Source of the DNA: a virus
Strand: one strand, 5' to 3'
DNA: 20,025 bases
IMG/VR virus record: IMGVR_UViG_3300025101_000261
Span: 1 to 20,025 of that record
Numbering within the stretch: the stretch's first letter is position 1; every line of letters begins with the position of its first letter. The notes below the pieces were generated by a model. It was not told where the DNA came from. It was given only the letters and a program-made list of their open reading frames with translations, and searched no databases. Shown one piece after another: positions 5-13,788 of the stretch. The translations under genes were made by a program, and so were the position numbers.

Positions 5-661
5 ATGAAAGTTAATCTAAGAATACCATCAAGCCTTAATGAAATAACCTTAGGACAATACCAAGAGTTTGCTAAGTTAGACGGAACGCTTGAGGACACA
101 CACGATACAGCGATACAACTTAAGATTGTAGAGATATTTTGTAAAGTGCCAGAGATAGTAGTACGCAATATGAAAGCCACAGACATAGCAGAGGTATGCG
201 AGATTATAAATACTATGTTTGACACTAACCACCAGCTTATAAATAAGTTTAGCTTAGGCGGTGTAGATTATGGCTTCATCCCAGAGTTAGACGATATGAC
301 CTTTGGCGAGTATATGGACTTAGACACTTTCATAGGAGATAACGATAATTTACACAGAGCAGTAAACGTACTATTTAGACCAATAGAACACAAGCGAGGC
401 ACAAGGTACACAATAAAGCAATACGACCCAGACACAAGCGATAACGCTAAGGACTTTCCCTTAGATGTAGTATTAGGTGCTATTGTTTTTTTTTACAGTT
501 TAGGCAAGGACTTATCGATGGTTATGTTGAACTCTTTGGACACGAAGAACGAGAAGGCTTTAGCACAGCATCTAATTTCACATCCAAATGGGGATGGTTT
601 AACGCACTCTATGGGATCGCTCAAGGCGATATTACAAGATTTAAAAATATCACTGAACTAA
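5..661 (+). CDS. Tail assembly chaperone, short form (gpG-like)
   Basis: This 218-residue protein is the probable zero-frame tail assembly chaperone, which would coat the tape-measure protein and help recruit tail-tube subunits during tail assembly. The family call rests on overall character: an N-terminal segment with ITLGQYQEF, a mixed alpha/beta body with FGEYMDLDTF, and a C-terminal helix ending LQDLKISLN, a pattern I associate with flavobacterial phage chaperones. It is the first gene of the tail block, and a second reading frame overlaps its 3' end and continues to 747, the usual G/GT arrangement. The ATG at position 5 follows TAAT, the last bases of the start-site motif seen before 7501 and 8855. 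No Shine-Dalgarno is visible, and the upstream region lies outside the window. The chaperone role is inferred from family resemblance and position. Confidence 0.7.
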   Translation: MKVNLRIPSSLNEITLGQYQEFAKLDGTLEDTHDTAIQLKIVEIFCKVPEIVVRNMKATDIAEVCEIINTMFDTNHQLINKFSLGGVDYGFIPELDDMTFGEYMDLDTFIGDNDNLHRAVNVLFRPIEHKRGTRYTIKQYDPDTSDNAKDFPLDVVLGAIVFFYSLGKDLSMVMLNSLDTKNEKALAQHLISHPNGDGLTHSMGSLKAILQDLKISLN

Positions 662-747
662 ATGTACACCAGTGCTTAACATATTTAGAATACACAAAAG
701 AAAAAAACCAAATAGAAGCATCACAGATTAAAAACAAATTCAAATAA
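5..747 (+). CDS. Tail assembly chaperone, predicted -1 frameshift product (GT-like)
   Basis: The -1 frame relative to the ORF at 5 is open from 451 to the TAA at 745-747, and its reading is strikingly protein-like: it contains SKWGWFNALYGIAQGD, then NITELNVHQCLTYLEYTKEK, then a charged tail. This resembles the C-terminal extension of GT chaperones, which bridges the tape measure and tube. A shift at T_TTT_TTT (487-493) joins residue 163 to 84 new residues. A shift at T_TTA_AAA (640-646) joins residue 214 to 33 new residues. Either gives 247 residues. The first site keeps the KWGW segment and I prefer it for that reason. The extension has no plausible start codon of its own in good context and directly precedes the next gene at 754. 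An indel error in the nine-T run is the main alternative. Confidence 0.65.
487..493 (+). other. Candidate -1 slippery heptamer T_TTT_TTT
   Basis: A run of nine T (486-494) places T_TTT_TTT in the X_XXY_YYZ register of the chaperone frame. After a -1 slip the frame stays open to 747 and includes the KWGW-containing segment. No other canonical heptamer in this register lies between here and that segment. Confidence 0.55.
640..646 (+). other. Second candidate slippery heptamer T_TTA_AAA
   Basis: T_TTA_AAA sits in the chaperone register, 13 nt before the zero-frame stop codon at 659-661. A -1 slip here would skip the KWGW segment but join directly to the conserved-looking HQCLTYLEY segment. It is the second canonical heptamer in the same gene. 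Confidence 0.4.
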
Positions 748-753
748 CAGATA

Positions 754-1224
754 ATGAGCCAACAAGGAATTAGAGGGTTTTACCAAATTACAGAAACAAT
801 AGAAACACAGCTTTTAAGCGATGTGAATGTAAACACAGTTACAACTGGCGACATATTCGACATTGACTTATCTAAGCAAAGCATATTTCCTTTGGCACAC
901 ATTATAGTAAACTCTGTAACACTACAAGAGCAAGTAATATCTTTTAACATTACTGTTATGGCTATGGATATTGTTGATGAAAGCAAGGATGCTACCACAG
1001 ATATCTTCAGAGGCAACAACAACGAACAAGATGTACTTAACACACAATTAGCAGTTCTGAATAAGTTGGTAATGGTGCTTCGACGTGGCGATTTATACAG
1101 CGACAAATTCCAACTTGAGGGCGATCCATCGCTTGAGCCATTTTATGAAAGGTTTGATAATCGACTTGCTGGGTACGCTGCAACAATGGACGTAATAATA
1201 CATAACGATATTACTATATGTTAG
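754..1224 (+). CDS. Tail terminator / tail completion-like protein
   Basis: The product has 156 residues with no signal peptide or membrane segment. Its character is that of a small alpha/beta phage morphogenesis protein: SKQSIFPLAHIIVNSVTL near residue 40-57, a DIFRGNNNEQDVLNTQ segment, then RRGDLY and a C-terminal AATMDVIIHNDITIC strand. I recognise this as a protein typical of flavobacterial siphophages, sitting between the chaperone and the gp10-like gene. Tail terminators of the gpU type cap the tube and have this size and position, so that role is inferred. The gene starts 6 nt after the frameshifted chaperone stop and its end overlaps the next start by 7 nt, which suggests translational coupling. 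Confidence 0.5.
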   Translation: MSQQGIRGFYQITETIETQLLSDVNVNTVTTGDIFDIDLSKQSIFPLAHIIVNSVTLQEQVISFNITVMAMDIVDESKDATTDIFRGNNNEQDVLNTQLAVLNKLVMVLRRGDLYSDKFQLEGDPSLEPFYERFDNRLAGYAATMDVIIHNDITIC

Positions 1225-1727
1225 CAGATAAGTTTTTAAGGGATGAACTGAACAAGTTTGCTAAATACGTTATTCAACAATCACGAAGCAACTTGACTAA
1301 GGGCAAAAAGAACGCTTCTAAGGAACTTTATAACTCTTTGGGTTACCAAGTATCACAAAGCGCACAAAAAACGTCCTTAGCCTTTAATATGGCTGACTAT
1401 GGTAAGTTTCAAGACAAAGGGGTAAGCGGAACACAAAAGAAATACAACACGCCTTACAAGTACACTAACAAGATGCCACCCACTAAGTCATTAGATAGTT
1501 GGGTAGTTAGAAAGGGAATTGCACCAAGAGGCTCTGGCGGTAAGTTCGTAAAGCGTGAAGGGATAAAGTTTGCAATAGCAAAGGCGATTAAAAAAAGAGG
1601 TATAAGACCAAGTTTGTTTTTTACAAAACCATTCGAGGCTGCTTTTAAAAGATTACCAGATGAGTTATTAGAGGCTTACTCAATAGGCTTAGAGAAACAA
1701 ATACAAGTAAACATTAACAAGAAATGA
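1218..1727 (+). CDS. HK97 gp10-like neck / tail completion protein
   Basis: The product is a basic 169-residue protein. It has an N-terminal helix rich in Lys, the segment MADYGKFQDKGVSGT at about residues 58-72, and PSLFFTKPFEAAFKRLP near residues 131-147. The pattern 'Y-x-F-x-D-x-G' followed by a basic stretch and a P-x-F-F/F-x-x-A-F block is what I expect of HK97 gp10-like proteins, which join the head connector to the tail. The start overlaps the preceding gene by 7 nt, and the stop overlaps the following ATG at 1724 by 4 nt. Family assignment is by motif recognition. A minor tail role is the alternative. Confidence 0.55.
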   Translation: MLADKFLRDELNKFAKYVIQQSRSNLTKGKKNASKELYNSLGYQVSQSAQKTSLAFNMADYGKFQDKGVSGTQKKYNTPYKYTNKMPPTKSLDSWVVRKGIAPRGSGGKFVKREGIKFAIAKAIKKRGIRPSLFFTKPFEAAFKRLPDELLEAYSIGLEKQIQVNINKK

Positions 1728-2842
1728 GCAAGATAAACGTAAGAAGTCCGTACTATATAACTACTGGCACAGTAACAAACCTAACAAGCACACAGCTTGA
1801 GTTGTATATATATCAAGGTACACAGACAACAAGCAGAGGCACACGCATCTACCTTTTAAATTCCTTTGCGGTTAATAACGTATGCACTTTTGAAATAGCC
1901 GAACTTGTAAGAGATTACTTTACTAATGTATTTGATGGAGATTACTCAACAGACATCTGGTGGGTAGATTATAGAACAACACAATTTATACAAGGTGTAG
2001 CGCAAACCACAAGCGGTTACACGCAACTTAAAGCCTTTTTTGGCTATGGTTTGTTTGAGGATGGTGCAAACCCTACAAACAGCCAAGCGGTTTTACAATC
2101 AAACACTAAGATAGTTAAGCTTGATGATGCACCAGCTGTAATAGCAGTAGATAGGTCTTTAGCAACACAAGTAACATACCTAAACAACGGAACGCAAGTT
2201 TATACGAAAGCTATAACATCAACTGATGAAAATGATCAGCAAATAGAATACGTTACAAGCGGTGTAAATGGCTCAGACGAGTTTGAGGATAGAGTTATAC
2301 AAGATGGCGGTACTTTTGAGGGTAGCGATTGCCTTACAGCCTTTGAGGGCGAATACACGCTATTTGACTTTGACACAATATTAGTAGATAGTTCTACTGG
2401 CGTTACAAAGCTAACAGTAACAAGTGAAAGCGAGTGTAAGTTTACGCCTTACAAGATTACGTTTATAAATAAGTTTGGGGTGTTGCAAGATATCTGGTTT
2501 TTCAAGCGCACAAATGAAACGCTAACAACCAAAACAGAGAAGTTTAAAAAGAATATAATTAGCGGCGCAAGTTACAGCATAAGCAACCACCAAGATAAGA
2601 CACTAACCAAAAATGGTAAAGAGAAACTAACCCTTAATACTGGCTACTACCCAGAAGCTTACAACGAGGTGTTTAAAGAGATGCAACTAAGTGAAGATTG
2701 TTGGATTGAAATAAACTCTAAGACCTTACCAATACAAGTTACAAGTAGTTCATTTGCTTACAAGACACAACTAAACGACAAGATCATAAACTACACAATA
2801 GAGATAGAGTTTGCTTTTGACACCATAAACAACATACGCTAA
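1724..2842 (+). CDS. Putative tail structural protein, unknown family
   Basis: The product has 372 residues, is rich in Thr, Asn, Tyr and beta-prone segments, and has no membrane segments or enzyme motif that I can see. It begins MSKINVRSPYYITTG and contains DYFTNVFDGDY, FGYGLFEDGANP and a late EIEFAFD strand. It is coupled to its neighbours (4-nt overlap with the upstream gene, next ATG immediately after its stop), inside the tail block and before the 862-residue protein. That points to a tail-tip, distal-tail or fibre-attachment component. I do not recognise a named domain, so function is inferred from context alone. Confidence 0.5.
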   Translation: MSKINVRSPYYITTGTVTNLTSTQLELYIYQGTQTTSRGTRIYLLNSFAVNNVCTFEIAELVRDYFTNVFDGDYSTDIWWVDYRTTQFIQGVAQTTSGYTQLKAFFGYGLFEDGANPTNSQAVLQSNTKIVKLDDAPAVIAVDRSLATQVTYLNNGTQVYTKAITSTDENDQQIEYVTSGVNGSDEFEDRVIQDGGTFEGSDCLTAFEGEYTLFDFDTILVDSSTGVTKLTVTSESECKFTPYKITFINKFGVLQDIWFFKRTNETLTTKTEKFKKNIISGASYSISNHQDKTLTKNGKEKLTLNTGYYPEAYNEVFKEMQLSEDCWIEINSKTLPIQVTSSSFAYKTQLNDKIINYTIEIEFAFDTINNIR

Positions 2843-5431
2843 ATGCAGATACTTGAGTTATACATAAGGGATGGAATTAAGTACCCAGAGTTTGGCACAA
2901 GCGCAGCCACAAGCACCTCAACAAACAATTTAGTAGATGCTACTGCTGACTTTACAAGTGGGGTTAAGGTAGGCTATATTGTCTTTAATAAAACAGATGG
3001 AACAAGCGCAAAGGTAACAGCGGTTACAAACGCAACTACTTTAGCTTTATCTGATAATATATTTGCAAGTGGGGAAATATACCAAATTAAAAGCGACTTT
3101 GTTAGGCTTGATTTGTTTAGTGATGAAAGCGTAACAATCACAGACACCATAAAGAACACTAAGGACATTTCTAAAGTGTTTACGCCATTTTCTCAGCAGT
3201 TTAATGTACCAGCCTCAAAGCATAACTCAAAACTCTTTAGACACTACGAAGACAACGATGTTGTAAATAGCTTCGATGCAAGGTTTAGAGTTGATGCCTT
3301 AATAAAGCTAAACGGTGCAGATTACAAAAAAGGTAAGCTAAGGCTTAATAGCGTTTCAATGAAAGACAATAAAGCGCACTCGTATAAGTTGGTTTTCTTT
3401 GGCGAAACAATAGAACTAAAAGACATTTTAGGCGATGACGATTTAAGTAGGCTTGAATTTCCAAGTAGTTTAAATTTTGCTTACGATTACGCTACAATAA
3501 AAAGCAAGTTTATATCTACATCTGGGGATGTTTGTTTTCCGCTTATTACCCACACTAAAAATATGCGTTATACAAACGCTGGATATAAAAGCACCGCTGG
3601 AGAATTTTTAAATCAATTTGACATTAAACCAGCAATAAAACTTAAAGCAATAATAGAGGCAATAGAAACCACTTACGATATTGACTTGTCAAACGACTTT
3701 TTTAACTCTTTAGAATTTAGAGATATTTATATGTGGTTACACAGAGAAAGTGGATTTATGAGTAATTCTACTGAGGGTGGTGATTTACAAGTTTTAGAGG
3801 CAAGGTTTCATTTACCTACTGACGCCAATTTAGATTTTGATAGTGGCACAGATGTTAGACCAGCTGATATATACATAAGTTACTCCAATGGGGGTACTTT
3901 AATAGGTCGTAGGTTAAAATTAAATTTTGATATTGACGCTGGTGGTTCTGACGAATTTAACTTTACGCTTTTGAGAAGCTCAGACAACGCTGTTTTGTTT
4001 GAACGGGACTACACTGGCTCGCAAGATTTTGATGTTATACTTTCTCCCTCCTATTGGACAAACCAAACTCCTTACAGTGAGGGTGTTGTTGATTTAAAAA
4101 TTTTAGTAACAACAGAAAATACTTTAACTTTCTCGGAGATAGAGATAACCGCAACATTGCAAGACCTTAATTTGCCTTATAGTATAACTGACGTTGCGAG
4201 CGGTGTTTATACTATGTCAGCTTTGGCTACTTCTAACCAAGTAATTATATCAAGGCAAATACCTAAAATGAAAGTCATTGACTTTTTAACAAACATATTT
4301 AAAATGTTTAACCTTGTGGCTTATAAAGAAAACAACCAAATACAAGCGTTGCCATTCAACGATTTTAACCTTCAAGGCACAAGCTATGACATTACAAAAT
4401 ATGTAGACACTTCTAAAAGCACAATAGAAAAAGTTTTAAAATACAAGAATGTTAAGTTTGGGTTTAAAAGCAAACAGAGTTTTTTAATACAAAAACAACA
4501 AGAACTACTTGGTAATGATTTTGCCGGAGAAAGCTACCCAGCTTCCAATGACAATGAATGGGATGGCGGTAAATTTAAAGTAGAGTTAGATTTCGAGAAA
4601 ATGCTTTACGAGAGGCTTACAAATGAGAATGATGCCACAGAATTAACTACAATATGCCAAGGTGCTATGTTGGACAAAAACTTTAGTGCCACTATTGGTG
4701 CGCCATTGCTTTTGTATATAAAAAACCAATCGACTTCAGATACTTTTAAGTTTCAAAATACATCATCTGGTGCTGTCGAAGACATTGCAGCTTACAACAG
4801 ACCAAGTCAAGTTAAAGTGAATATTGGTGTATTTGATAGTTCAAGTTCTTTAAACTTCGGTGTTGAGATAGACGAATTTTTTAGAGAGGTAAAAGGAACA
4901 AACCTATTCGCTAAATACTATGCAGATTATTTAACAAGCATATACAACAGACAAGGTAGAATAAAAAAGGTAGAAGCGTTCTTGCCTTTACACATACTGT
5001 TAAACTACAACCTCAACGACAAGTTTATAATACGCAACAAATCATACAGAATTAACTCAATAAAAACTAACCTACTGACTAATAAAAGTTCTTTAGAGTT
5101 GTATACCTTAAGCGAAAGCGTTACTGGTGTAGGAAGTTCACAGTTTGGGTTTTTACCAAGATTGGCTACTTTAAGTGTTACAGCCACATCAAGTTCAAGT
5201 GTTACTTTAGCTTGGACACCAGCAGGTGCGTTAAACACAGACAACATTACTGGATATGACGTTTACAAAGATGACGAGTTTGTAGAAACTTTAGGTAACG
5301 ACATAGGTGGAAGAACACTTACTGGTTTAGACAGCGGTATAACTTTTAAATTAGCTATAAGAACAAGATACACCATTGACAGTAGCGTGGTGTTTTCAAA
5401 TGATAGAATAGTTTACGCAACAACAGATTAA
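2843..5431 (+). CDS. Large tail-tip / baseplate-like protein with C-terminal FN3-like domain
   Basis: At 862 residues this is the largest product in the window. Residues about 20-90 form a small beta module with the pattern LVDATADF...VGYIVFNKTDG...VTAVTNATTLALSD, a type I know from phage structural proteins. Residues about 110-200 include FTPFSQQFNVPASKHN and a lengthy beta-rich region. Residues about 771-862 look like a fibronectin type III domain: SVTATSSSSVTLAWTP, then ITGYDVYKDDEFVETL, then a final strand. Such Ig-like domains are common on phage tail surfaces, where they can bind host glycans. Its place just before the tape measure fits a tail-tip hub or baseplate role. The order is unusual, because tip proteins more often follow the tape measure. 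Confidence 0.55.
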   Translation: MQILELYIRDGIKYPEFGTSAATSTSTNNLVDATADFTSGVKVGYIVFNKTDGTSAKVTAVTNATTLALSDNIFASGEIYQIKSDFVRLDLFSDESVTITDTIKNTKDISKVFTPFSQQFNVPASKHNSKLFRHYEDNDVVNSFDARFRVDALIKLNGADYKKGKLRLNSVSMKDNKAHSYKLVFFGETIELKDILGDDDLSRLEFPSSLNFAYDYATIKSKFISTSGDVCFPLITHTKNMRYTNAGYKSTAGEFLNQFDIKPAIKLKAIIEAIETTYDIDLSNDFFNSLEFRDIYMWLHRESGFMSNSTEGGDLQVLEARFHLPTDANLDFDSGTDVRPADIYISYSNGGTLIGRRLKLNFDIDAGGSDEFNFTLLRSSDNAVLFERDYTGSQDFDVILSPSYWTNQTPYSEGVVDLKILVTTENTLTFSEIEITATLQDLNLPYSITDVASGVYTMSALATSNQVIISRQIPKMKVIDFLTNIFKMFNLVAYKENNQIQALPFNDFNLQGTSYDITKYVDTSKSTIEKVLKYKNVKFGFKSKQSFLIQKQQELLGNDFAGESYPASNDNEWDGGKFKVELDFEKMLYERLTNENDATELTTICQGAMLDKNFSATIGAPLLLYIKNQSTSDTFKFQNTSSGAVEDIAAYNRPSQVKVNIGVFDSSSSLNFGVEIDEFFREVKGTNLFAKYYADYLTSIYNRQGRIKKVEAFLPLHILLNYNLNDKFIIRNKSYRINSIKTNLLTNKSSLELYTLSESVTGVGSSQFGFLPRLATLSVTATSSSSVTLAWTPAGALNTDNITGYDVYKDDEFVETLGNDIGGRTLTGLDSGITFKLAIRTRYTIDSSVVFSNDRIVYATTD

Positions 5432-5577
5432 TGATAAAACAAATACTTGAACTTTTAAAACACGCAAACGGAGAAACAGAAACGATCCGTATAGCACAAG
5501 GTAAACACAAACTACCTACAACACTAAAAGAGGGATATAAAGCACTTAAACAAGAGATACAATGGCAAAAGAGATAA
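5431..5577 (+). CDS. Small hypothetical protein (48 aa) between tail tip and tape measure
   Basis: This ORF starts at the ATG that shares its A with the preceding stop codon (TAATG) and overlaps the tape-measure start by 16 nt, so it fills the only gap between two large genes. The product begins MIKQILELLKHANGETETI and ends with a helix, EGYKALKQEIQWQKR. It is basic, probably mostly helical, with no membrane segment. The tight coupling on both sides supports it being translated. I cannot name a function. A small tail assembly factor is only a guess from position. Confidence 0.5.
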   Translation: MIKQILELLKHANGETETIRIAQGKHKLPTTLKEGYKALKQEIQWQKR

Positions 5578-7466
5578 TAATTGACATAGATGTAAATTCT
5601 AAGAAAGCACAAAAAGAAGTTGAGAACTTAGAGAAAGCGGTCGAGGGTGTAAATGAAGAAGTGAAAGAAACGAGTGCATCTACTGAAGCTATGGGCGGTG
5701 TGCTTGATAGTGTTACTGGCGGTGCTGTTTCTAAATTTAAAGGTCTTAAAAAGGGTTTAAAAGGTGTTATAACAAGTTTTAAAACGCTTAGAGTTGCAAT
5801 TATTTCAACTGGGATAGGTGCTTTAGTTATAGGCGTTGTTGCTCTTGCGGCGGCATTCAAAGGTAGTGAAGATGGGCAAAATAAGTTTGCTAAAATAACG
5901 ACTGTTATAGGTGCGGCTGTTGGTAATTTAGTGGACTTACTTGCAGACTTAGGAGAAAATATAATAAGCGTATTTGAAAACCCTAAACAAGCCTTAAAGG
6001 ATTTTACGAAATTAATTAAAGAAAACCTAATAAATAGGTTTGAGGGTTTACTTGAACTTATACCAAACTTAGGTAGGGCAGTAAGCCTTTTGTTTAAAGG
6101 AGAATTTAAAGAGGCTGGTAAGGTGGCTGCTGATGCGGTTGGTAAAGTTACTCTTGGGGTCGATAGTATTACAGACAGCGTTGCAAGTGCAACGGAAGGA
6201 GTAAAAGGCTTTATTAAAGAACAAGAGAAAGAACTTAAACAAGCCGCTTCTGTTGCTGATATGAGGGCTAAGGCGGATAAAATAGAAAGAAAATTAATTG
6301 TAGATAGGTCTAAATTAGAAAGTGAAATTGCAAACCTAAGGCTTAAATCAAGGCAAGAAGAAGAATTTAGCGCAGCAGAAAGAAAACAAGCCTTACTTGA
6401 TGCACAAGTTTTAGAAGACCAGTTACTTGACAAAGAAACAGAGTTTTTAGAATTAAGACGTGATGCGCAAATCTTAGAAAACACTTTTAGTAGAAGTAAT
6501 AAAGAAAACTTAACAAAAGAAGCTGAGGCGATAGCAGCAGTTAATAGACAACAAGCTGCAAGAGCAAACACAGCAAGGCAAGTACAAAGGGAAGTCAATA
6601 CTATTAGCAAACAGATAGAGGCTGAAAACAAACAAAAAGACAATGAAGAAAAAGCGAGGATAAAAGAATTAGATGACTTCAAAAAAACTTTAAGAGATGC
6701 TGAAGCGGTTTCAGAACAACAAAAAAGAGATTTAGAATTAATTAAAATACAAGAGCATTACGATAATTTAATTTTACAAGCAAAAGAAAACAATATAAAA
6801 ACAGATGAACTTGAAGCAGCAAGGGATGAAGCAAAAAGATTAAAACAGAAGGAGTTTAATGATAAAGATTTAGCAGCACAAAAACAATTTAATCAAGAAA
6901 TGGCACAACTTGAAGTAAATTTGCAAGCAGCCAAGTCAAACGCAATTAAAGGCGGTTTACAAGTTATAGGTCAATTAGCTGGTAAGTCAAAAGCTTTGTC
7001 TGCTGGTCTTTTAGTGGTAGAAAAAGGTTTAGCAATAGCTCAAGTAATATCAAACGCTGCAAAATCAATAGCACAAGCAAAAGCTAATTTAGCAGCAACT
7101 CCAGTGGCTTTAGGGCCAGTTCCAAATCCAATGTATGCAGTTCAAGCGGTTGCGACTGCTAAAGGAATTTTAGCTACAAAACTATCTGCTGCTACTTCTA
7201 TTGCCACTATTGCTGCCCAAGCAATACCAGGCTTATCTGGTGGCGGAAAAGGTGGTGGCTCTGCTGGTAGTTTAGGTGGGGCTGGAACTGGTGCTGCGGA
7301 AGCACAACCCCCATCTTTTAACATAGTAGGCGCAAGTGATACAAACCAATTAGCTGATGCGATAGGCGGACAAACACAACAACCAGTCCAAGCGTTCGTA
7401 GTAGCCAATGACGTAACAACAGCACAAAGCCTTGAAAATAACATAGTCGAGGGCGCAACATTATAA
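5562..7466 (+). CDS. Tape measure protein
   Basis: The product has 634 residues and the layout of a siphophage tape measure. It has a heptad-like N-terminal region (about 10-40), a strongly hydrophobic segment at about 77-99 (VAIISTGIGALVIGVVALAA), a long Lys/Glu/Gln/Ala-rich coiled coil at about 220-470, and a second hydrophobic Ala-rich region at about 470-560 followed by a Gly-rich linker. Tape measures set tail length and later help DNA entry. By the usual rule of about 1.5 angstrom per residue this one would give a tail near 95 nm. It lies last in the tail block, downstream of its presumed chaperone. A large ORF on the opposite strand here is a shadow of the coiled-coil composition. Confidence 0.85.
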   Translation: MAKEIIIDIDVNSKKAQKEVENLEKAVEGVNEEVKETSASTEAMGGVLDSVTGGAVSKFKGLKKGLKGVITSFKTLRVAIISTGIGALVIGVVALAAAFKGSEDGQNKFAKITTVIGAAVGNLVDLLADLGENIISVFENPKQALKDFTKLIKENLINRFEGLLELIPNLGRAVSLLFKGEFKEAGKVAADAVGKVTLGVDSITDSVASATEGVKGFIKEQEKELKQAASVADMRAKADKIERKLIVDRSKLESEIANLRLKSRQEEEFSAAERKQALLDAQVLEDQLLDKETEFLELRRDAQILENTFSRSNKENLTKEAEAIAAVNRQQAARANTARQVQREVNTISKQIEAENKQKDNEEKARIKELDDFKKTLRDAEAVSEQQKRDLELIKIQEHYDNLILQAKENNIKTDELEAARDEAKRLKQKEFNDKDLAAQKQFNQEMAQLEVNLQAAKSNAIKGGLQVIGQLAGKSKALSAGLLVVEKGLAIAQVISNAAKSIAQAKANLAATPVALGPVPNPMYAVQAVATAKGILATKLSAATSIATIAAQAIPGLSGGGKGGGSAGSLGGAGTGAAEAQPPSFNIVGASDTNQLADAIGGQTQQPVQAFVVANDVTTAQSLENNIVEGATL

Positions 7467-7468
7467 AT

Positions 7469-7503
7469 ACAAAATAAATTTAAATCTATTATATATTAAT
7501 ATG
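7469..7503 (+). promoter_or_regulatory. Two-block start-site motif, copy 1 (possible leaderless promoter)
   Basis: ACAAAATAAA begins at 7469 and TTATATATTAATATG ends on the start codon of the protease gene. The same two blocks occur at exactly the same spacing before 8855 and 11621. If the A of ATG is +1, the blocks lie at about -32 and -12 to -3, which is promoter-like geometry. Confidence 0.5.
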
Positions 7504-8670
7504 CGAATTGTAGAACTTATTTTAGACGAAGACCAAGAAATAGGGATTGAAGCTATTAGCGTAGTAGAAAACCCAGCAATAGAAGAAGATTTTATTGCCT
7601 TAAAATCACAAGAGTTTAAACTTGCAGAAGTAGACAAAGAAAAGCGAATACTTATGGGTGCGCTACTTATACCAAACAAGCCTATATACAGACGCAATGG
7701 AGAAGATGAGTACTACATATATTTTTCAAAAGATACTGTCTTAAAAGCTTCGCAAATGTACTTAATGCAAGGCAAACAGAATAACAGTACCTTAGAACAC
7801 CAATACGAATTAAACGGACTTAGTTTAGTAGAGAGTTGGCTTGTAGAAGATAAGGTACACGACAAATCTGTAAAATACGGAATGGACTTACCTCTTGGTA
7901 CTTGGGTAGGTGCTGTAAAAGTAAACAACGACCAAATCTGGAATGAGTTTGTAAAAACTGGCAAAGTAAAAGGCTTTAGCATAGAGGGTTACTTCGCTGA
8001 CAAAATGGAAAGACCTAAAGAAAGCATAAAAGACGAACTTGCTAAGATAGAAGAAGCCGAAGCAGAGTATTTGCTAAGTCAAGTAAAAGCTATTATCAAA
8101 ACTGATAAAAGATACAAGAGCGGTAAAAAGACAACCTTAGAAAGCTACACAGATTACCCAGATGCGGTAAAGAACAATGCTAAACGTGGTATAGATCTTA
8201 ACAAAAAGGTAAACAACAAATGCGCTACTGAGGTTGGTAAGATACGAGCGCAACAATTAGCACAAGGTAAGCCAATAAGTGAAGAAACAATTAAGCGTAT
8301 GTATTCTTACTTGTCAAGAGCAGAGGAGTTCTACGATGAAAACGACAAAGAAGCTTGTGGCACTATCTCTTATTTATTATGGGGTGGTAAAGCTGGTAAG
8401 CGATACGCTGCTAAAAAACTAAAAGAGTTCGGAGAGTTAAGCCTTGCTTCTATGACTGTAAACGAGGACTTTGCTATTATAGACGACCGATTGGCTTATT
8501 CAACAGAAGAAAAAGCTAAAGAGATGTCTTCTAACATAGGTTGCGAGGGAATTCACACTCACGAATACGAGGGTAAAACTTGGTATATGCCTTGCGAACA
8601 ACATAGCGTTGATATGTATGGTAAGTGTCCTAAAGGTTTCAAAAAGAAAAACGGAAAATGCGTAAGGTAA
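7501..8670 (+). CDS. XkdF-like prohead maturation protease with extra C-terminal modules
   Basis: The product has 389 residues. Residues about 48-170 match the XkdF-type serine protease family (Peptidase_S78-like): MGALLIPNKPIYRR, then STLEHQ with likely catalytic His100, and GFSIEG with likely catalytic Ser160. This enzyme would cleave scaffold and capsid precursors during head maturation. Residues about 215-310 form a separate module with YPDAVKNNAKRGIDLN, CATEVGKIRAQQLAQG and YLLWGGKAGKRY, a helical unit I have seen attached to phage head proteins; its role is unknown to me. The C-terminal 45 residues are Cys/His-rich (C348, H352, H354, C365, H368, C376, C387), suggesting zinc binding. The protease precedes scaffold and capsid genes, as expected. 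The start is fixed by the motif ending on its ATG. Confidence 0.75.
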   Translation: MRIVELILDEDQEIGIEAISVVENPAIEEDFIALKSQEFKLAEVDKEKRILMGALLIPNKPIYRRNGEDEYYIYFSKDTVLKASQMYLMQGKQNNSTLEHQYELNGLSLVESWLVEDKVHDKSVKYGMDLPLGTWVGAVKVNNDQIWNEFVKTGKVKGFSIEGYFADKMERPKESIKDELAKIEEAEAEYLLSQVKAIIKTDKRYKSGKKTTLESYTDYPDAVKNNAKRGIDLNKKVNNKCATEVGKIRAQQLAQGKPISEETIKRMYSYLSRAEEFYDENDKEACGTISYLLWGGKAGKRYAAKKLKEFGELSLASMTVNEDFAIIDDRLAYSTEEKAKEMSSNIGCEGIHTHEYEGKTWYMPCEQHSVDMYGKCPKGFKKKNGKCVR

Positions 8671-8671
8671 T

Positions 8672-8818
8672 ATGCTAAGAAGAATAAAAAAATTTATAAC
8701 ACCAAGTAAAACAAGCCCAAAGGGTAGTCGCAGAGGCGGTTGTTTGTGTGAAGATAACACTTACAAAACCAAATGCTGTGATGGAAGTTTAAGGGCGCAA
8801 GGTGTAGGGAACGTCTGA
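8672..8818 (+). CDS. Small Cys-rich protein (48 aa), conserved type in flavophages
   Basis: This short ORF starts 1 nt after the protease stop. The product has a basic N-terminus (MLRRIKKFITPSK) and a compact Cys-rich C-terminal half with GCLCEDNTYKTKCCDGSLR, four Cys within 15 residues, followed by AQGVGN. I recognise the 'C-L-C-E-D...C-C-D-G-S' pattern from small proteins in flavobacterial phages and read it as a real gene. The four Cys could bind zinc or form disulfides. No enzyme motif is visible. Its role may be linked to the head protease just upstream, whose own tail is also Cys-rich, but that is inference from position. Confidence 0.6.
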   Translation: MLRRIKKFITPSKTSPKGSRRGGCLCEDNTYKTKCCDGSLRAQGVGNV

Positions 8819-8822
8819 AAAT

Positions 8823-8857
8823 GCAAAATTAATTTTTAACACTTATATATTAATATG
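8823..8857 (+). promoter_or_regulatory. Two-block start-site motif, copy 2
   Basis: GCAAAATTAA begins at 8823 and TTATATATTAATATG ends on the scaffold start codon at 8855-8857. The last 15 bases are identical to copy 1 and the block spacing is the same. It fills almost the whole gap after the small Cys-rich gene. Confidence 0.5.
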
Positions 8858-9463
8858 AATACAAATGATATGATATCAAAAATCAAAGAAGTTGTAGGCT
8901 TGTCCGAAGAGATTAAGCTTGAGCAACAAACTTTAGAGAACGGTGCTATCTTGGAGGCTGAAAGTTTTGAAGCTGGACAAGAAATTTTTATCGTTTCTGA
9001 AGATGAGAAAATTGCCGTACCAGTTGGCGAATACCAAATGGAAGACGGACGTATTTTAGTAGTAGCTGAAGAGGGTCTTATTGCTGAGATTAAAGCAGAG
9101 GAAGAAGAAGAAGAAGTTGTGGAAGAAGTTGAAGAAGTAGAGGCTAAAGAAGAAGAAGAAGAAATGTATGCTACTAAAAGAGAATTAGCTGAAGTTAAAG
9201 AAATGATTGAAGAAATCAAAGCTATGCTTGAGCCAAAGGAAGAAATGAGTTCAGATGATCTTGGAAACCTTATGACTGAGGAACTTGCTAAACACGAGAA
9301 GTTAAGCGAAGTACCAGAAGAAGTACAAGAGGAACTAAACCAACCAGCTGCAGAGCCAATCAAGGCTAACCCAGAGGTACAAACAAAACAAAATTTTAAG
9401 TTTGCTAACAAAAGAAGATTAAGCACACTTGATAGAGTAATGAACAAAATAATTAACAACTAA
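8855..9463 (+). CDS. Capsid scaffolding protein-like (acidic, coiled coil)
   Basis: The 202-residue product is very acidic. Residues about 25-80 form a small beta-rich domain (AESFEAGQEIFIVSEDEK, then GEYQMEDGRILVVAEEG), residues about 82-104 are almost pure Glu, and residues about 105-128 form a coiled coil (KRELAEVKEMIEEIKAML). The last 22 residues are basic (FKFANKRRLSTLDRVMNK). An acidic helical body with a short basic C-terminal helix that contacts the coat protein is typical of phage scaffolds, and the gene lies between protease and major capsid protein. I therefore call it the scaffold. It would guide procapsid assembly and then be cleaved or released. A long ORF on the other strand covers it but is a composition shadow. 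Confidence 0.65.
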   Translation: MNTNDMISKIKEVVGLSEEIKLEQQTLENGAILEAESFEAGQEIFIVSEDEKIAVPVGEYQMEDGRILVVAEEGLIAEIKAEEEEEEVVEEVEEVEAKEEEEEMYATKRELAEVKEMIEEIKAMLEPKEEMSSDDLGNLMTEELAKHEKLSEVPEEVQEELNQPAAEPIKANPEVQTKQNFKFANKRRLSTLDRVMNKIINN

Positions 9464-9474
9464 AATTAAATTAA

Positions 9475-10395
9475 ATGGCTAATCCGACTATTACATCCAG
9501 TTCATATGCTGGAGAATTTGCTGGGAAGTACTTAGGTGCTGCCCTATTATCTGCATCAACGCTTGACGCTGGTGCTGTAACAATCTTACCGAACATCAAG
9601 TATAAAGCTGCTATGAAAGTAGGTGCTTTTTCAAACTTGGTACGTTCTGCGGATTGTGATTTTGACAGTACTACTTCTGGTCTTACATTGACTGAGAAAG
9701 TATTAACACCAGCTGAACTACAAGTAAACCTACAAATCTGTAAGAAAGAATTACACGCAGATTGGGAAGCTGCTCAAATGGGCTTTAGTGCTTTTGACCA
9801 ACTACCTCCTTTATTTTCTGACTATGTTATTTCAAGAGTAGCTGCTGAGGTTGCTAATGCAACTGAAACTTCTATCTGGAGTGGTGCTTCAGGAGAAGGA
9901 AACTTTGATGGCTTTGATGCTTTACTAACTGCTGATGGTGGTGCTGACGTTGCAGAAGGAACTGTAACAAGTGCTAACGTAATCGCTGAGTTAGGGAAGA
10001 TTGTAGATGCTGCACCTTCAACTATCTTAGGAAAAGAAGATTTAACGCTTTACGTTTCTTCAAACATCGCACAAGCTTACATTCGTGCTTTAGGTGGCTT
10101 TGCTGCTACTATTGGAAGCAATGGTGTTGATGGTAGAGGTACAATGTGGTACAATGGTGGTGCTTTATCTTTTGAAGGTATCAACATCTTTGTAGCTAAA
10201 GGTATGGCAAACAACAAGGCTATATTGGCTCAGAAGTCAAACTTGTTCTTTGGAACTGGTCTTTTAGATGACAGAAACGAAGTTAAAGTAATTGATATGG
10301 CTGACCTTGATGGATCTCAAAATGTGCGTGTAGTAATGCGTTACACTGCTGGGGTACAATACGGAGTTAGAGGCGACATCGTACTTTATTCTTAA
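9475..10395 (+). CDS. Major capsid protein (HK97-fold)
   Basis: The product has 306 residues. It begins MANPTITSSSYAGEFAGKYL, has an N-terminal arm, a domain with LQICKKELHADWEAAQMG near residues 86-103, and the C-terminal pattern LFFGTGLLDDRNEVKVIDM then QNVRVVMRYTAGVQYGV near residues 257-300, which I know from capsid proteins of Bacteroidota phages. It forms the icosahedral shell. The gene directly follows the scaffold with 11 nt between them and is followed 25 nt later by a strong terminator, as expected for the most highly expressed late gene. Codon choice looks rich in GCT, GGT and ACT, in keeping with high expression. The AT-rich start context lacks a Shine-Dalgarno. Confidence 0.8.
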   Translation: MANPTITSSSYAGEFAGKYLGAALLSASTLDAGAVTILPNIKYKAAMKVGAFSNLVRSADCDFDSTTSGLTLTEKVLTPAELQVNLQICKKELHADWEAAQMGFSAFDQLPPLFSDYVISRVAAEVANATETSIWSGASGEGNFDGFDALLTADGGADVAEGTVTSANVIAELGKIVDAAPSTILGKEDLTLYVSSNIAQAYIRALGGFAATIGSNGVDGRGTMWYNGGALSFEGINIFVAKGMANNKAILAQKSNLFFGTGLLDDRNEVKVIDMADLDGSQNVRVVMRYTAGVQYGVRGDIVLYS

Positions 10396-10419
10396 TAAAT
10401 TAAATTAATCAACATAAAG

Positions 10420-10448
10420 AGGGTGGGCAAAACTGCCTACCCTTTTTT
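10420..10448 (+). terminator. Rho-independent terminator after the capsid gene
   Basis: GGGTGGGCA (10421-10429), loop AAAC, TGCCTACCC (10434-10442), then six T. The 9-bp stem has a single G-T wobble. It closes the head unit and separates it from the gene at 10466, which must rely on read-through or an unseen promoter. Confidence 0.85.
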
Positions 10449-10465
10449 ATTAAATCTAAAAAAAT

Positions 10466-11005
10466 ATGGCTTGTGCAATAACAAAAGGTCGAGGGGTTGG
10501 ATGTAAGACCGCCTTTGCTGGAATTAAAAATATTTACATCTTAGATTATAGTGCTGCGATTGCTGCTTTAGGCGATAGCAGTGGTACTATAACACTACCA
10601 ACGGACAACTCTGCTGAGTTCTTTAAGTTTGAAGTAAAGGGCGGTTTAAGTTCTTTAGAAACTGCTGTAACATCAAGCAGAGAAAACGGTACTACTTTTT
10701 ACGAAAGTACTTTAAATGTTACTTTCCAAAACTTAGACGTAGCGACACAAGAAGAAATTAAACTCTTAAATAGAGGTCGTGCGCATTACGTTGTAGAATT
10801 GTACCCAGATGGTGCTGGGAACACTAAGCGTTTGTTAGTGGGTAGAGATAATGGCGCAGAAATCACTGGGGGAACAATTGTTTCTGGGGCTGCCCCAGGG
10901 GACTTGCAAGGCTTCACTTTAACTGCGGTTGCAACAGAGGTTTTTCCTCCGTTCTTCTGTACTGAGCCAGACGTAAGTGCTGTAACACCAATAAGTCCAG
11001 CATAG
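10466..11005 (+). CDS. Probable major tail tube protein
   Basis: The product has 179 residues, beta-rich, without membrane segments. Features: N-terminal MACAITKGRGVGCKTAFAGI, a central EFFKFEVKGGLSSLETAV followed by TTFYESTLNVTFQNLD, then RGRAHYVVELY and VGRDNGAEITGGTIVSG, ending in a strand before an acidic tail. Alternating strands with a long beta-hairpin region and a 'GRDNG-A-x-x-T-G-G' segment fit tail-tube proteins of flavobacterial siphophages as I know them. Its place right after the major capsid gene, between two strong terminators, suits an abundant structural protein. The assignment is pattern-based. A head decoration protein is the alternative. Confidence 0.5.
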   Translation: MACAITKGRGVGCKTAFAGIKNIYILDYSAAIAALGDSSGTITLPTDNSAEFFKFEVKGGLSSLETAVTSSRENGTTFYESTLNVTFQNLDVATQEEIKLLNRGRAHYVVELYPDGAGNTKRLLVGRDNGAEITGGTIVSGAAPGDLQGFTLTAVATEVFPPFFCTEPDVSAVTPISPA

Positions 11006-11027
11006 TAGTTTATTTATGTTTAAAATT

Positions 11028-11054
11028 AGCCTTTCTTTTTGAGAGGCTTTTTTT
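11028..11054 (+). terminator. Rho-independent terminator after the tail-tube gene
   Basis: AGCCTTTC (11028-11035), loop TTTTT, GAGAGGCT (11041-11048), then a T run to 11054. The 8-bp stem has one G-T wobble. It isolates the next gene from upstream late transcription. Confidence 0.8.
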
Positions 11055-11093
11055 ATGCCCAACAGATAAGAAATAAAAAAAATTAAAAAAAAC

Positions 11094-11114
11094 TTGTTTA
11101 TAATTTGTTTATAA
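11094..11114 (+). repeat. Tandem TTGTTTATAA repeats overlapping the moron promoter
   Basis: TTGTTTATAA occurs at 11094-11103 and again at 11105-11114, 11 nt start to start, about one helical turn. The second copy overlaps the TTTG of the -33 element. The arrangement could bind a regulator, though AT-rich DNA makes short repeats less surprising. Confidence 0.5.
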
Positions 11115-11136
11115 CAATAAATGTTTTGTATATTTG
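11104..11136 (+). promoter_or_regulatory. Bacteroidota-type promoter for the moron gene
   Basis: TTTG at 11104-11107 and TATATTTG at 11129-11136 match the Bacteroidota -33 (TTTG) and -7 (TAnnTTTG) elements with a 21-nt spacer. Expected transcription start is near 11143, about 15 nt before the ATG at 11158. This would be read by the host's primary sigma factor. Confidence 0.7.
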
Positions 11137-11157
11137 TAATGTAAAACAAAAAAAATT

Positions 11158-11529
11158 ATGACAACCTTAGAAAAAATAAACAAATTAGTAGAAAGCGGTA
11201 AGGTCTACGAATATTCAAACAGATGTTGGTTTACTTGCTATATGACTTATTCTAAACTAACTAAAAAAGAAAAAAGCGAGGTTGTAATGGTTGAGGGCAA
11301 GGCTAACGGTTATCTACATTATTGGCTGCAAGTTAATGGTGTAACAGTAGACCCCCACTACAAGCTTATAGAGGACGACTTACAAGTAGAAGAAGAATAT
11401 ACTTACGAGCCTAAAAAATTAATAGACCTATCCTCTTTGAAAGTGAATAAAGACAACTACGAAGAAAAACCCGCTTATAATTGGTTAGGTCGTGAGAAGT
11501 GGTCTAAGGTTTACGACTTGTCTTTATAA
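11158..11529 (+). CDS. Moron gene; unknown protein with possible Cys-His-Asp triad
   Basis: The product has 123 residues and no signal peptide or membrane segment. I do not recognise a named family. The residues NRCWFTCYMTY (Cys23, Cys27), then GYLHYWLQVNG (His54) and VTVDPHYKL (Asp65) follow the order and spacing of papain-like or transglutaminase-like folds: a Cys at a helix start, a His-x-Trp strand, and an Asp-Pro after 'x-N-G-x'. I infer a possible cysteine hydrolase or a degenerate relative. The gene has its own host-type promoter and is enclosed by terminators at 11028-11054 and 11558-11586, so it can be expressed apart from the late genes. That is the hallmark of a moron. Roles such as superinfection exclusion or host modification are possible but not shown. 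Confidence 0.7.
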   Translation: MTTLEKINKLVESGKVYEYSNRCWFTCYMTYSKLTKKEKSEVVMVEGKANGYLHYWLQVNGVTVDPHYKLIEDDLQVEEEYTYEPKKLIDLSSLKVNKDNYEEKPAYNWLGREKWSKVYDLSL

Positions 11530-11557
11530 AAAGATAAGTATAAAAACAAATACAAAC

Positions 11558-11586
11558 ATCCTTACAGAAATGTAGGGATTTTTTTT
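11558..11586 (+). terminator. Rho-independent terminator closing the moron cassette
   Basis: ATCCTTACA (11558-11566), GAAA tetraloop, TGTAGGGAT (11571-11579), then a T run to 11586. The 9-bp stem has one G-T wobble. It stops moron transcripts just before the start-site motif of the next late unit. Confidence 0.85.
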
Positions 11587-11588
11587 AC

Positions 11589-11623
11589 GCAAAATAAAAT
11601 AGTTTTGTTTATATATTAGTATG
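11589..11623 (+). promoter_or_regulatory. Two-block start-site motif, copy 3
   Basis: GCAAAATAAA begins at 11589 and TTATATATTAGTATG ends on the start codon at 11621-11623. It differs from copies 1 and 2 by one base in the last 15 and has the same spacing. Because a terminator lies just upstream, a promoter is needed here, which supports reading the motif as one. Confidence 0.55.
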
Positions 11624-11971
11624 AAGATTATAGGAACTAATGGCGATAAAACTTTTAAGGTTATACCACGCCAATTTGTAAGCGGTGCAATTACTATAAA
11701 CCTAACAAGTGAAAGTACTGGCGCAACTATAAATAAAACACCTACCGCTTCAACAGATGGCAATTATATGTCATTTGTAGCAGCTTTCGGTACATTAACT
11801 GAGGGCGATTTTTATATGCTTGAGGTAAAGAATGGTGCTGCTGTAATTTACAAAGACAAAGTTTTTTGCACAGATCAAACTATAAACCAAGCTAACAACG
11901 ATTACTATTCTGTAAATAGTGGCGAATACACCACAGAGAATAGCTTTGATAACGATTATATTATTTTATGA
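11621..11971 (+). CDS. Small structural-type protein of unknown function
   Basis: The 116-residue product is beta-rich: MKIIGTNGDKTFKVIPRQF, then an Ig- or jelly-roll-like series of strands, then VFCTDQTINQANNDYYSVN and a C-terminal NDYIIL. The pattern 'F-C-T-D-Q ... Y-S-V-N ... D-N-D-Y-I-I' is one I associate with small proteins next to portals in flavobacterial phages. The last 4 nt overlap the portal start (ATGA), so the two are probably translated together. A head-surface or neck function is likely from position, but I cannot name a family. Confidence 0.6.
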   Translation: MKIIGTNGDKTFKVIPRQFVSGAITINLTSESTGATINKTPTASTDGNYMSFVAAFGTLTEGDFYMLEVKNGAAVIYKDKVFCTDQTINQANNDYYSVNSGEYTTENSFDNDYIIL

Positions 11972-13788
11972 ACGATTTAAGAATAGTTAATTTAAGCAGT
12001 TACACAAGTCCAGAGATTGTAGAGAAATCAAACAAACAATGGGTAGCGTATGGAAGCGATAATAATTACTTCCAATACCTAATAGACCGCTACAACGGAA
12101 GTCCTACTAACAACGCCATAATCAATGGTGTTAGCCAAATGATTTACGGAAAAGGCTTAGATGCTTTAGACAGCAATAGAAAGCCAGAGGCTTACGCTAA
12201 AATGATTACTTTATTTAAAAAGGATTGTGTGCGCAAGTTGTGTTACGATTTAAAACTTATGGGTCAATGCTCAATACAAGTTATTTACTCTAAGGATAGA
12301 AAAACAATAGCACAAGTAGAACACATCCCAGTAGAGAATTTAAGAGCAGAGAAGTGTAACGAGAAAGGCGAAATAACTGGCTACTATTATAGTGATGATT
12401 GGAGTAATGTAAAACCAAGAACAGAACTAAAACGCATACCAGCTTTTGGCTATTCAAATGAGAGTATTGAGATTATTTACATAAAGCCTTACAGAGCGGG
12501 TTATAAGTACTATTCAAGCCCAGATTATCAAGGTGGTTTACAGTACGCAGAGTTAGAAGAAGAAATATCTAACTATCACTTAAACAACATCCTTAATGGT
12601 TTAGCCCCATCGATGTTGATTAATTTTAACAACGGTACACCAAACGCAGAGGAACGCCAAAACTTAGAAAACCGCATATACTCTAAATTTAGTGGCTCAA
12701 GCAACGCTGGTAAGTTTATACTTGCGTTCAATGATAACGCAGAGAGCCAAGCTACAATAGAGCCTATACAATTAAGTGATGCACATAACCAATACCAATT
12801 CTTAAGTGATGAGAGTGGCAAGAAAATAATGGTGGCACACCGAGTTGTAAGTCCTATGCTTTTAGGAATTAAAGACAGCACTGGATTGGGTAATAATGCA
12901 GATGAACTACAAACTGCATCGGTGCTTATGGATAACACAGTTATTAGACCATTTCAGCACCTTTTAATAGATGCCTTTGATAGTATATTAGCTTTTAATA
13001 ATATCTCTTTAAAACTATACTTTAAGACCTTACAACCGCTTGAGTTTACAGACCTTGAAAACGTAGAGGACGAAGAAACAAGGGAAGAAGAAACTGGCGT
13101 AAAATTAGCCAAAGATTTGCCAAAGGAATTAGGTAGCGATATAGCAGATGCCTTAATTGACTTAGGAGAGGACGAAACAGACCTTTTAAGCGACTTTGAC
13201 GTAATGGATGAGCGAGAGGTAAACTATGACGAAGAAGATGGCTTAGACGAGGTTATAACGGACTTAAACAAGCCGAAAGAAAAAAGCACACTTGCTAAAA
13301 TATGGGAGTTTGTAAGTACTGGTAGCGCAAAGCCTTTTAGAGAAAGCGAACAAGATGGCGAAAGCAAACAAGAAGCTGAAGAAGGTAATACTTTCTTAGT
13401 AAGGTATATGTACAGCCCACAAAGATACAGCGCAAACTCAAGACCATTCTGTAAAAAGATGGTAGATGCTAAAAAGGTTTACCGCAAGGAAGATATTATC
13501 TCAATGGACACAAAAGCAGTCAATGCTGGTTTTGGTAAGGGCGGTAGCGATACTTATTCAATATGGTTGTATAAGGGCGGTGCAAGATGCCAACACAAAT
13601 GGCTTAGAAAGACGTATGTGCGCAAGGATGGTGCTAAAGGCTTAGGCGATGCGATCACAACCACAGAAGCAAGGTCAAGAGGTTTTAAACCAGAGGCAAA
13701 CGCTCAGAAAGTACCAGTAGCACCAAAGGATATGAAGTATAAAGGTTATACCGCTGAATATTGGAACAAAATAGGATTTAAGAACTAA
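11968..13788 (+). CDS. Portal protein with fused C-terminal domain
   Basis: The product has 606 residues. Residues about 20-355 have portal character: WVAYGSDNNYFQYLIDRYNG, NAIINGVSQMIYGKG, a central strand region, and SDESGKKIMVAHRVVSPMLLGI followed by LGNNADELQTASVLMDNTV, where a helix precedes the crown. The portal forms the ring at the capsid vertex through which DNA passes. Residues about 360-470 are an acidic linker. Residues about 474-550 form a second domain: FLVRYMYSPQ, RPFCKKMVDAKKVYRKEDI (Cys495), VNAGFG, then YSIWLYKGGARCQHKWLRK (Cys541, His543). I recognise it as a domain attached to portals in Bacteroidota phages, reminiscent of the C-terminal part of MuF-type head proteins. The placement downstream of the capsid gene is noncanonical. 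Confidence 0.75.
   Translation: MNDLRIVNLSSYTSPEIVEKSNKQWVAYGSDNNYFQYLIDRYNGSPTNNAIINGVSQMIYGKGLDALDSNRKPEAYAKMITLFKKDCVRKLCYDLKLMGQCSIQVIYSKDRKTIAQVEHIPVENLRAEKCNEKGEITGYYYSDDWSNVKPRTELKRIPAFGYSNESIEIIYIKPYRAGYKYYSSPDYQGGLQYAELEEEISNYHLNNILNGLAPSMLINFNNGTPNAEERQNLENRIYSKFSGSSNAGKFILAFNDNAESQATIEPIQLSDAHNQYQFLSDESGKKIMVAHRVVSPMLLGIKDSTGLGNNADELQTASVLMDNTVIRPFQHLLIDAFDSILAFNNISLKLYFKTLQPLEFTDLENVEDEETREEETGVKLAKDLPKELGSDIADALIDLGEDETDLLSDFDVMDEREVNYDEEDGLDEVITDLNKPKEKSTLAKIWEFVSTGSAKPFRESEQDGESKQEAEEGNTFLVRYMYSPQRYSANSRPFCKKMVDAKKVYRKEDIISMDTKAVNAGFGKGGSDTYSIWLYKGGARCQHKWLRKTYVRKDGAKGLGDAITTTEARSRGFKPEANAQKVPVAPKDMKYKGYTAEYWNKIGFKN

Follow-up and report, generated by a model that had tools for sequence, protein, structure and literature searches.

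Layout of the putative recoded gene

The window, the whole stretch of 20,025 nt analyzed here, begins with a gene that appears to be recoded (positions 5 to 661, + strand). It starts with ATG at 5 and ends with TAA at 659-661, and its zero-frame product is a G-like protein of 218 aa. A run of nine Ts (T9) lies at 486 to 494 (+ strand) in the context ATT GTT TTT TTT TAC. The heptamer T_TTT_TTT at 487-493 is inside this run and in the correct register. In the −1 frame no stop interrupts 451-744, and the stop codon is at 745-747. The sequence-only reading had proposed this heptamer in this register, and a −1 frame open over 451-747 against a zero frame running to 661; the ORF coordinates in the window agreed on both counts.

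The T-like extension in the −1 frame (493 to 747, + strand) is 84 aa long and has no start codon of its own; no ATG, GTG or TTG codon occurs anywhere in the −1 ORF of the window. It carries the conserved SKWGWFNALYGIAQGDITRF and HQCLTYLEYTKEKN. Residues 1-163, which are common to both products, together with this extension make a product of 247 aa, and the junction of the two frames would read ...GAIVFFLQFR.... The dual-coded stretch (493 to 661, + strand) is 169 nt long including the stop codon, or about 56 codons. Its zero-frame tail reads YSLGKDLSMVMLNSL...KISLN* and its −1 frame LQFRQGLIDGYVELFG....

When the zero-frame protein was used to scan IMG/VR, 80 relatives were found, mostly of 64-97% identity. 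The extension has more than 400 relatives in the same database. The recoded gene belongs to a family of Bacteroidetes-type phages.

Conservation of the T run

The exact T9 was present in the window and in 77 of the 79 close relatives examined in IMG/VR. One close relative (L078) ends before the slip site. All 70 full-length sequences kept both T9 and an open −1 frame. In all 70 the distance from the start of FFY was 174 nt to the end of the zero-frame stop codon and 260 or 263 nt to the −1 stop. A pattern scan that also accepted T8, T10 or T7-CT returned T9 at 80 of 80 sites. The sequence-only reading had listed what would speak against it, namely −1-frame stops in homologues, a heptamer that varies, or another run length that restores one frame. 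No −1 stop was found among the relatives, the heptamer was invariant, and the only run length restoring one frame was a T10 in one contig. In this metagenome contig (L072:1746-2489) one 247-aa ORF encodes the whole GT-like product, which reflects a natural fusion or else an error in assembly or sequencing.

In wider IMG/VR scans, NTT TTT TTT TAY was found at 216 of 217 distinct loci, a set chosen by the site pattern. The exception (L314) reads CTT TTT TTT TTC TAC, that is, T10 followed by C. Because of this selection, loci that were retrieved with the −1-frame protein alone were checked too. Their distinct script-scored sites had T9 in 104 of 105 cases, and the remaining one (L429) had T10 followed by C. 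Eleven atypical sites from loci fetched with the −1 protein were inspected by eye, and each had a run of 9 or 10 Ts; at such sites TAY was replaced by TGG (L419), TTC (L411) or TTG (L420, L421, L424 and L431). Every distant relative inspected, at the 217 distinct and the 11 atypical sites, thus had 9 or 10 unbroken Ts.

The motif FFYxLGxxL was near-universal in the zero frame. Across the wider family the zero-frame tail after FF was as short as 16 and as long as 88 codons, with 55 the commonest length. This variability suggested that long dual coding is common and that its extent differs by lineage. One sub-lineage (L228-L232) kept T9 and lost the downstream TTTAGG, which is otherwise near-invariant. 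TTTAGG is therefore no obligatory part of the slip signal.

The isolate Nonlabens phage P12024L, at about 30% identity, has CTT TTT TTT TAT, a −1 frame with FSLKWGWYHTF, and the same layout as the window. Its locus (JQ823123.1 23946-24640; L081) is annotated as two hypothetical proteins, P12024L_40 and _41. These features argue for the two being parts of one putative recoded gene.

In Flavobacterium phage 6H, a minus-strand gene (L352:10352-10927) encodes a 191-aa protein that is structurally similar to the N-terminal domain and ends in ...CFFYSTR. An unannotated open −1 frame follows it. No simple slip site was found in this relative; the same simple shift is excluded there, because a −1 stop comes directly after TTT TTC.

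Selection on both frames

For 52 non-redundant sequences, substitutions were placed on a tree by parsimony, and their rates were scaled to upstream synonymous sites. Each class is named by its effect in the zero frame and then in the −1 frame, S for synonymous and N for not. With the limits set by parsimony, by a rate model taken from a single region and by the use of metagenome contigs, the observed/expected ratios in the dual region (494-658) were 0.26 for SN (95% bootstrap 0.16-0.36), 0.27 for NS (0.17-0.38) and 0.12 for NN. The upstream control gave 0.98 for SN and 0.09 for NS. The downstream control (662-744) gave 0.11 for SN and 0.81 for NS. Both controls thus behaved as single-coding DNA should. 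The overlap therefore carries two constrained proteins, at about equal strength. SS sites were too few to judge any extra constraint at the RNA level.

The balance between the frames shifted along the overlap. Positions 494-526 were mostly under zero-frame constraint (NS 0.12, SN 0.46) and 593-625 mostly under −1-frame constraint (NS 0.47, SN 0.15), while 626-658 was constrained in both (NS 0.20, SN 0.30).

The second-frame constraint started at the T run. Synonymous variation was near normal up to about 480 and then dropped, and the synonymous positions 487, 490 and 493 had no changes against 18.7 expected. Positions 451-492, although open in the −1 frame, evolved as ordinary zero-frame DNA, which indicated that they are not translated in that frame.

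Stop avoidance was seen in both frames of the dual-coded stretch. Codon shuffling that preserved the zero-frame amino acids predicted 3.4 stops per sequence in the −1 frame across the overlap, and 1.8% of the shuffles left this frame open; none was observed in the 52 non-redundant sequences. In the reverse shuffling, which preserved the −1 amino acids, 3.2 zero-frame stops were expected and the frame was open in 0.9%; again none was observed. Either frame would thus seldom stay open by accident. The alignment of homologues in both frames that the sequence-only reading had called for, with conservation at synonymous sites, thus revealed constraint in both, and its proposal that 493-661 encodes two proteins under selection was upheld.

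Proposed synthesis of two products

Sequence comparison found a common N-terminus and two predicted products that a −1 shift would connect at a slippery site lying in register, the arrangement of G/GT pairs. A programmed −1 frameshift, by which one gene would give a G/GT-like pair of products, is the best reading of the locus, and we regard it as likely. The conserved site, the two open frames, the selection on both and the absence of an alternative start were established by comparing the sequences themselves. From these, slippage would very probably occur in vivo.

Normal decoding of 5-661 would give the 218-aa protein. In a minority of expression events, slipping back by one base at T9 would give the 247-aa protein, consisting of the first 163 residues in common and the 84-residue −1-frame end. 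The slip could take place by re-pairing of tRNA-Phe on U_UUU_UUU, or by RNA polymerase adding a U. Both protein ends would be functional, and this would make 493-661 dual-coding. By its layout, the pair would probably act like lambda G/GT in tail assembly, with an abundant short chaperone and a rare long form bearing an extra domain.

A shift at T_TTA_AAA (640-646), near the zero-frame stop, was rejected. The X_XXY_YYZ pattern was kept there in 24 of 70 sequences, compared with 70 of 70 at 487, and the −1-frame constraint was already present from the T run on.

Ribosome or RNA polymerase as the candidate slipping machine

We put the chance that the slip is ribosomal at about even. The in-register X_XXY_YYZ heptamer was conserved at synonymous sites, as a ribosomal site would be. 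A stimulatory RNA structure downstream of the site was sought in three ways: no base pair had changes on both sides in 17 sequences, folding was no better than that of shuffles in most of nine sequences (z-scores −2.0 to 1.4), and Rfam gave no match. G/GT sites do not always need a stimulatory structure.

Alternatively, RNA polymerase may slip on T9, so that a fraction of the mRNAs with U10 would bring the −1 frame into frame for ribosomes reading normally. This is a serious possibility, if somewhat short of even. The conserved run of nine or more uninterrupted Ts is of the kind expected for a transcriptional site, for which nine A or T is the candidate slippage length in PMC1088944. All the relatives had at least nine uninterrupted Ts, whereas a ribosomal heptamer needs seven. 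A change of T to C at 493 is silent in both frames and leaves T_TTT_TTC, which is a working motif class in E. coli, where UUU and UUC both rank as shift-prone A-site codons (PMC4066793), and is also the site reported for SPP1 (PMC6316719). Yet no site showed this change alone, although TTC makes up 29% of the Phe codons elsewhere in the gene. C occurred at that place only where an extra upstream T kept the run at T10 (L314 and L429).

The structure searches, negative as they were, also fit polymerase slippage, as does the depletion of long runs in the coding DNA of these phages. By synonymous shuffling over about 90 related phage loci, T8 was observed 5 times against 19.6 expected, and A9 or longer 10 times against 29.9. 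T7 was depleted in all three phases at these loci, and not specifically in the T_TTT_TTT phase.

On the other hand, the conserved residues V/I/L/F and Y/W/F can also explain the Ts at 486 and 494. T was kept throughout at codon position 2 in 16 of 41 hydrophobic columns, so these flanking Ts alone do not separate the mechanisms. Exact conservation of the heptamer would also be expected if the ratio of the products is tuned. Tail-chaperone shifts are generally taken as ribosomal, as in lambda, and this counts against slippage by RNA polymerase. That both machines slip has a small chance. The fullest form of the polymerase reading, in which RNA polymerase slips on an obligatory T run of nine or longer to make the GT-like product of a large, undescribed phage gene family, with as much as about 260 nt of DNA being dual-coding and selected in two frames, is rather unlikely.

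Identity of the protein and its genome context

The gene falls in PHROG 32199, a family of unknown function, and the −1 part of the window by itself had no PHROG match. None of Pfam, NCBIfam and PHROGs named a chaperone, the first two giving no match. AlphaFold predicted the common N-terminal domain with fair confidence and both C-terminal tails with low confidence; in the model of the fused product, alignment A5 covers the −1 end with a single sequence. Fold searches against the PDB gave no informative match to a solved structure. The distant structural matches were family members and uncharacterized phage proteins. The first named one was a 'tail assembly chaperone', a weak match (E 0.09, probability 0.87, TM 0.37-0.41).

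The candidate tape measure protein (5562 to 7466, + strand) had PHROG tape measure matches, and tblastn tied it to proteins annotated as tape measure in Croceibacter phage P2559Y and Polaribacter phage Leef_1. Protease, capsid and portal genes belong to the same module. Gene order over 5-13788 is unusual: the chaperone-like gene comes first, then four tail-type genes, and after these the tape measure, protease, capsid and portal genes. The recoded gene is not beside the tape measure gene as in most G/GT pairs, lying about 4.8 kb and four genes away.

A role as a tail assembly chaperone, as the sequence-only reading had it, is probable; it is plausible from layout, genome context and the weak structural match, and these make it a weaker claim than the recoding. 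The gene may instead be recoded and encode something else, perhaps another morphogenesis protein or one linked to packaging. Its place after terL in two lineages (L024 and P12024L) points that way, as does the lack of a match to a curated chaperone. Against this, the part of the module inside the window contains no other G/GT-like pair, and the weak structural match is to an annotated chaperone. We consider this other identity unlikely. Since the tape measure gene is not adjacent and the role is deduced, we describe the gene as working like G/GT, and not as a proven member of that group.

Other readings of the two frames

Only the −1 protein might matter after the slip, the zero-frame tail being a passenger left open by chance. 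The range of tail lengths in the wider family and the low-confidence structure prediction for this tail would fit such a passenger. But zero-frame-only changes occurred at 0.27 of the neutral rate within the overlap, and at 0.20 even in 626-658, compared with 0.81 immediately beyond the stop. The near-universal FFYxLGxxL and the stop fixed in 70 of 70 sequences also argue against it. We regard a passenger tail as improbable.

The −1 ORF could also be a separate downstream gene, translated by re-initiation or from an internal start, as annotated in P12024L, where a −1-frame ATG overlaps the zero-frame stop. Some start codon occurs early in the −1 frame in 19 of the 217 distinct loci. In the other 198, none precedes the conserved KWGW motif, and the window has none at all, so a shift would be needed; an independent start was rejected on this ground. 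The onset of second-frame constraint at the T run adds to making a separate gene very improbable.

A homopolymer sequencing error or a pseudogene can be dismissed: T9 is error-prone and contig L072 has T10 with a fused ORF, but the comparative data refute it, since T9 recurs in an isolate genome and in well over 100 contigs and both frames are under selection.

Comparison with known systems

One close parallel is gene 17.5/17.5* of Bacillus phage SPP1, a G/GT analogue for which a −1 shift at UUUUUUC was predicted by bioinformatics (PMC6316719). There too, the poly-U slip site is far from the gene's ends and the −1 product is the longer one. Its products are of 173 and 297 aa, with the first 112 common (PMC6316719). 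From these published lengths, SPP1 has about 61 zero-frame residues after the slip, compared with 163 common and 55 following residues here, and its −1 extension is about 185 aa compared with 84. The SPP1 site is T_TTT_TTC, in contrast to a T9 or T10 run, and 17.5 is directly before the tape measure gene, unlike the gene here. The sequence-only reading held the overlap to be longer than in typical G/GT pairs. Its length is indeed atypical, but the SPP1 lengths imply a comparable overlap (PMC6316719), which makes it uncommon rather than unprecedented.

Lambda, also a tailed phage, makes gpG and gpGT with a common N-terminus; the −1 product is the minor one and bears an additional C-terminal domain (PMC5009743). 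The shift in lambda comes close to the 3' end of G with minimal dual coding, whereas 169 nt are dual-coded here, and G/GT is beside the tape measure gene. In annotated actinophage frameshift genes, nearly all of them tail chaperones, the slip site precedes the zero-frame stop by a mean of 26 nt, compared with about 165 nt here; with PRFect, this distance exceeded 51 nt in only 2 of 43 genomes (PMC10885494).

Shigella mxiE and Thermus dnaX resemble this gene in that a homopolymer run gives a second frame by transcriptional slippage; the longer product of mxiE is made by an added U (PMC1088944). Their proteins are unrelated to the one here, for which slippage at the RNA level is only a candidate.

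Searches of an open-access library on frameshifted tail chaperones and dual coding yielded no description of this family. What is new is how large and conserved the family is, that a T run of nine or longer is obligatory in it, and that selection was measured directly in both frames. The recoded gene is present in hundreds of environmental phage contigs, and databases split or truncate it, as in the two hypothetical proteins P12024L_40 and _41 and in PHROG 32199. Frameshift predictors that favor slip sites near the stop miss such long-overlap cases. The gene allows a direct test of the ribosome versus RNA polymerase as the slipping machine. Because two proteins constrain one stretch about equally, it is also a clean natural system for the evolution of dual coding.
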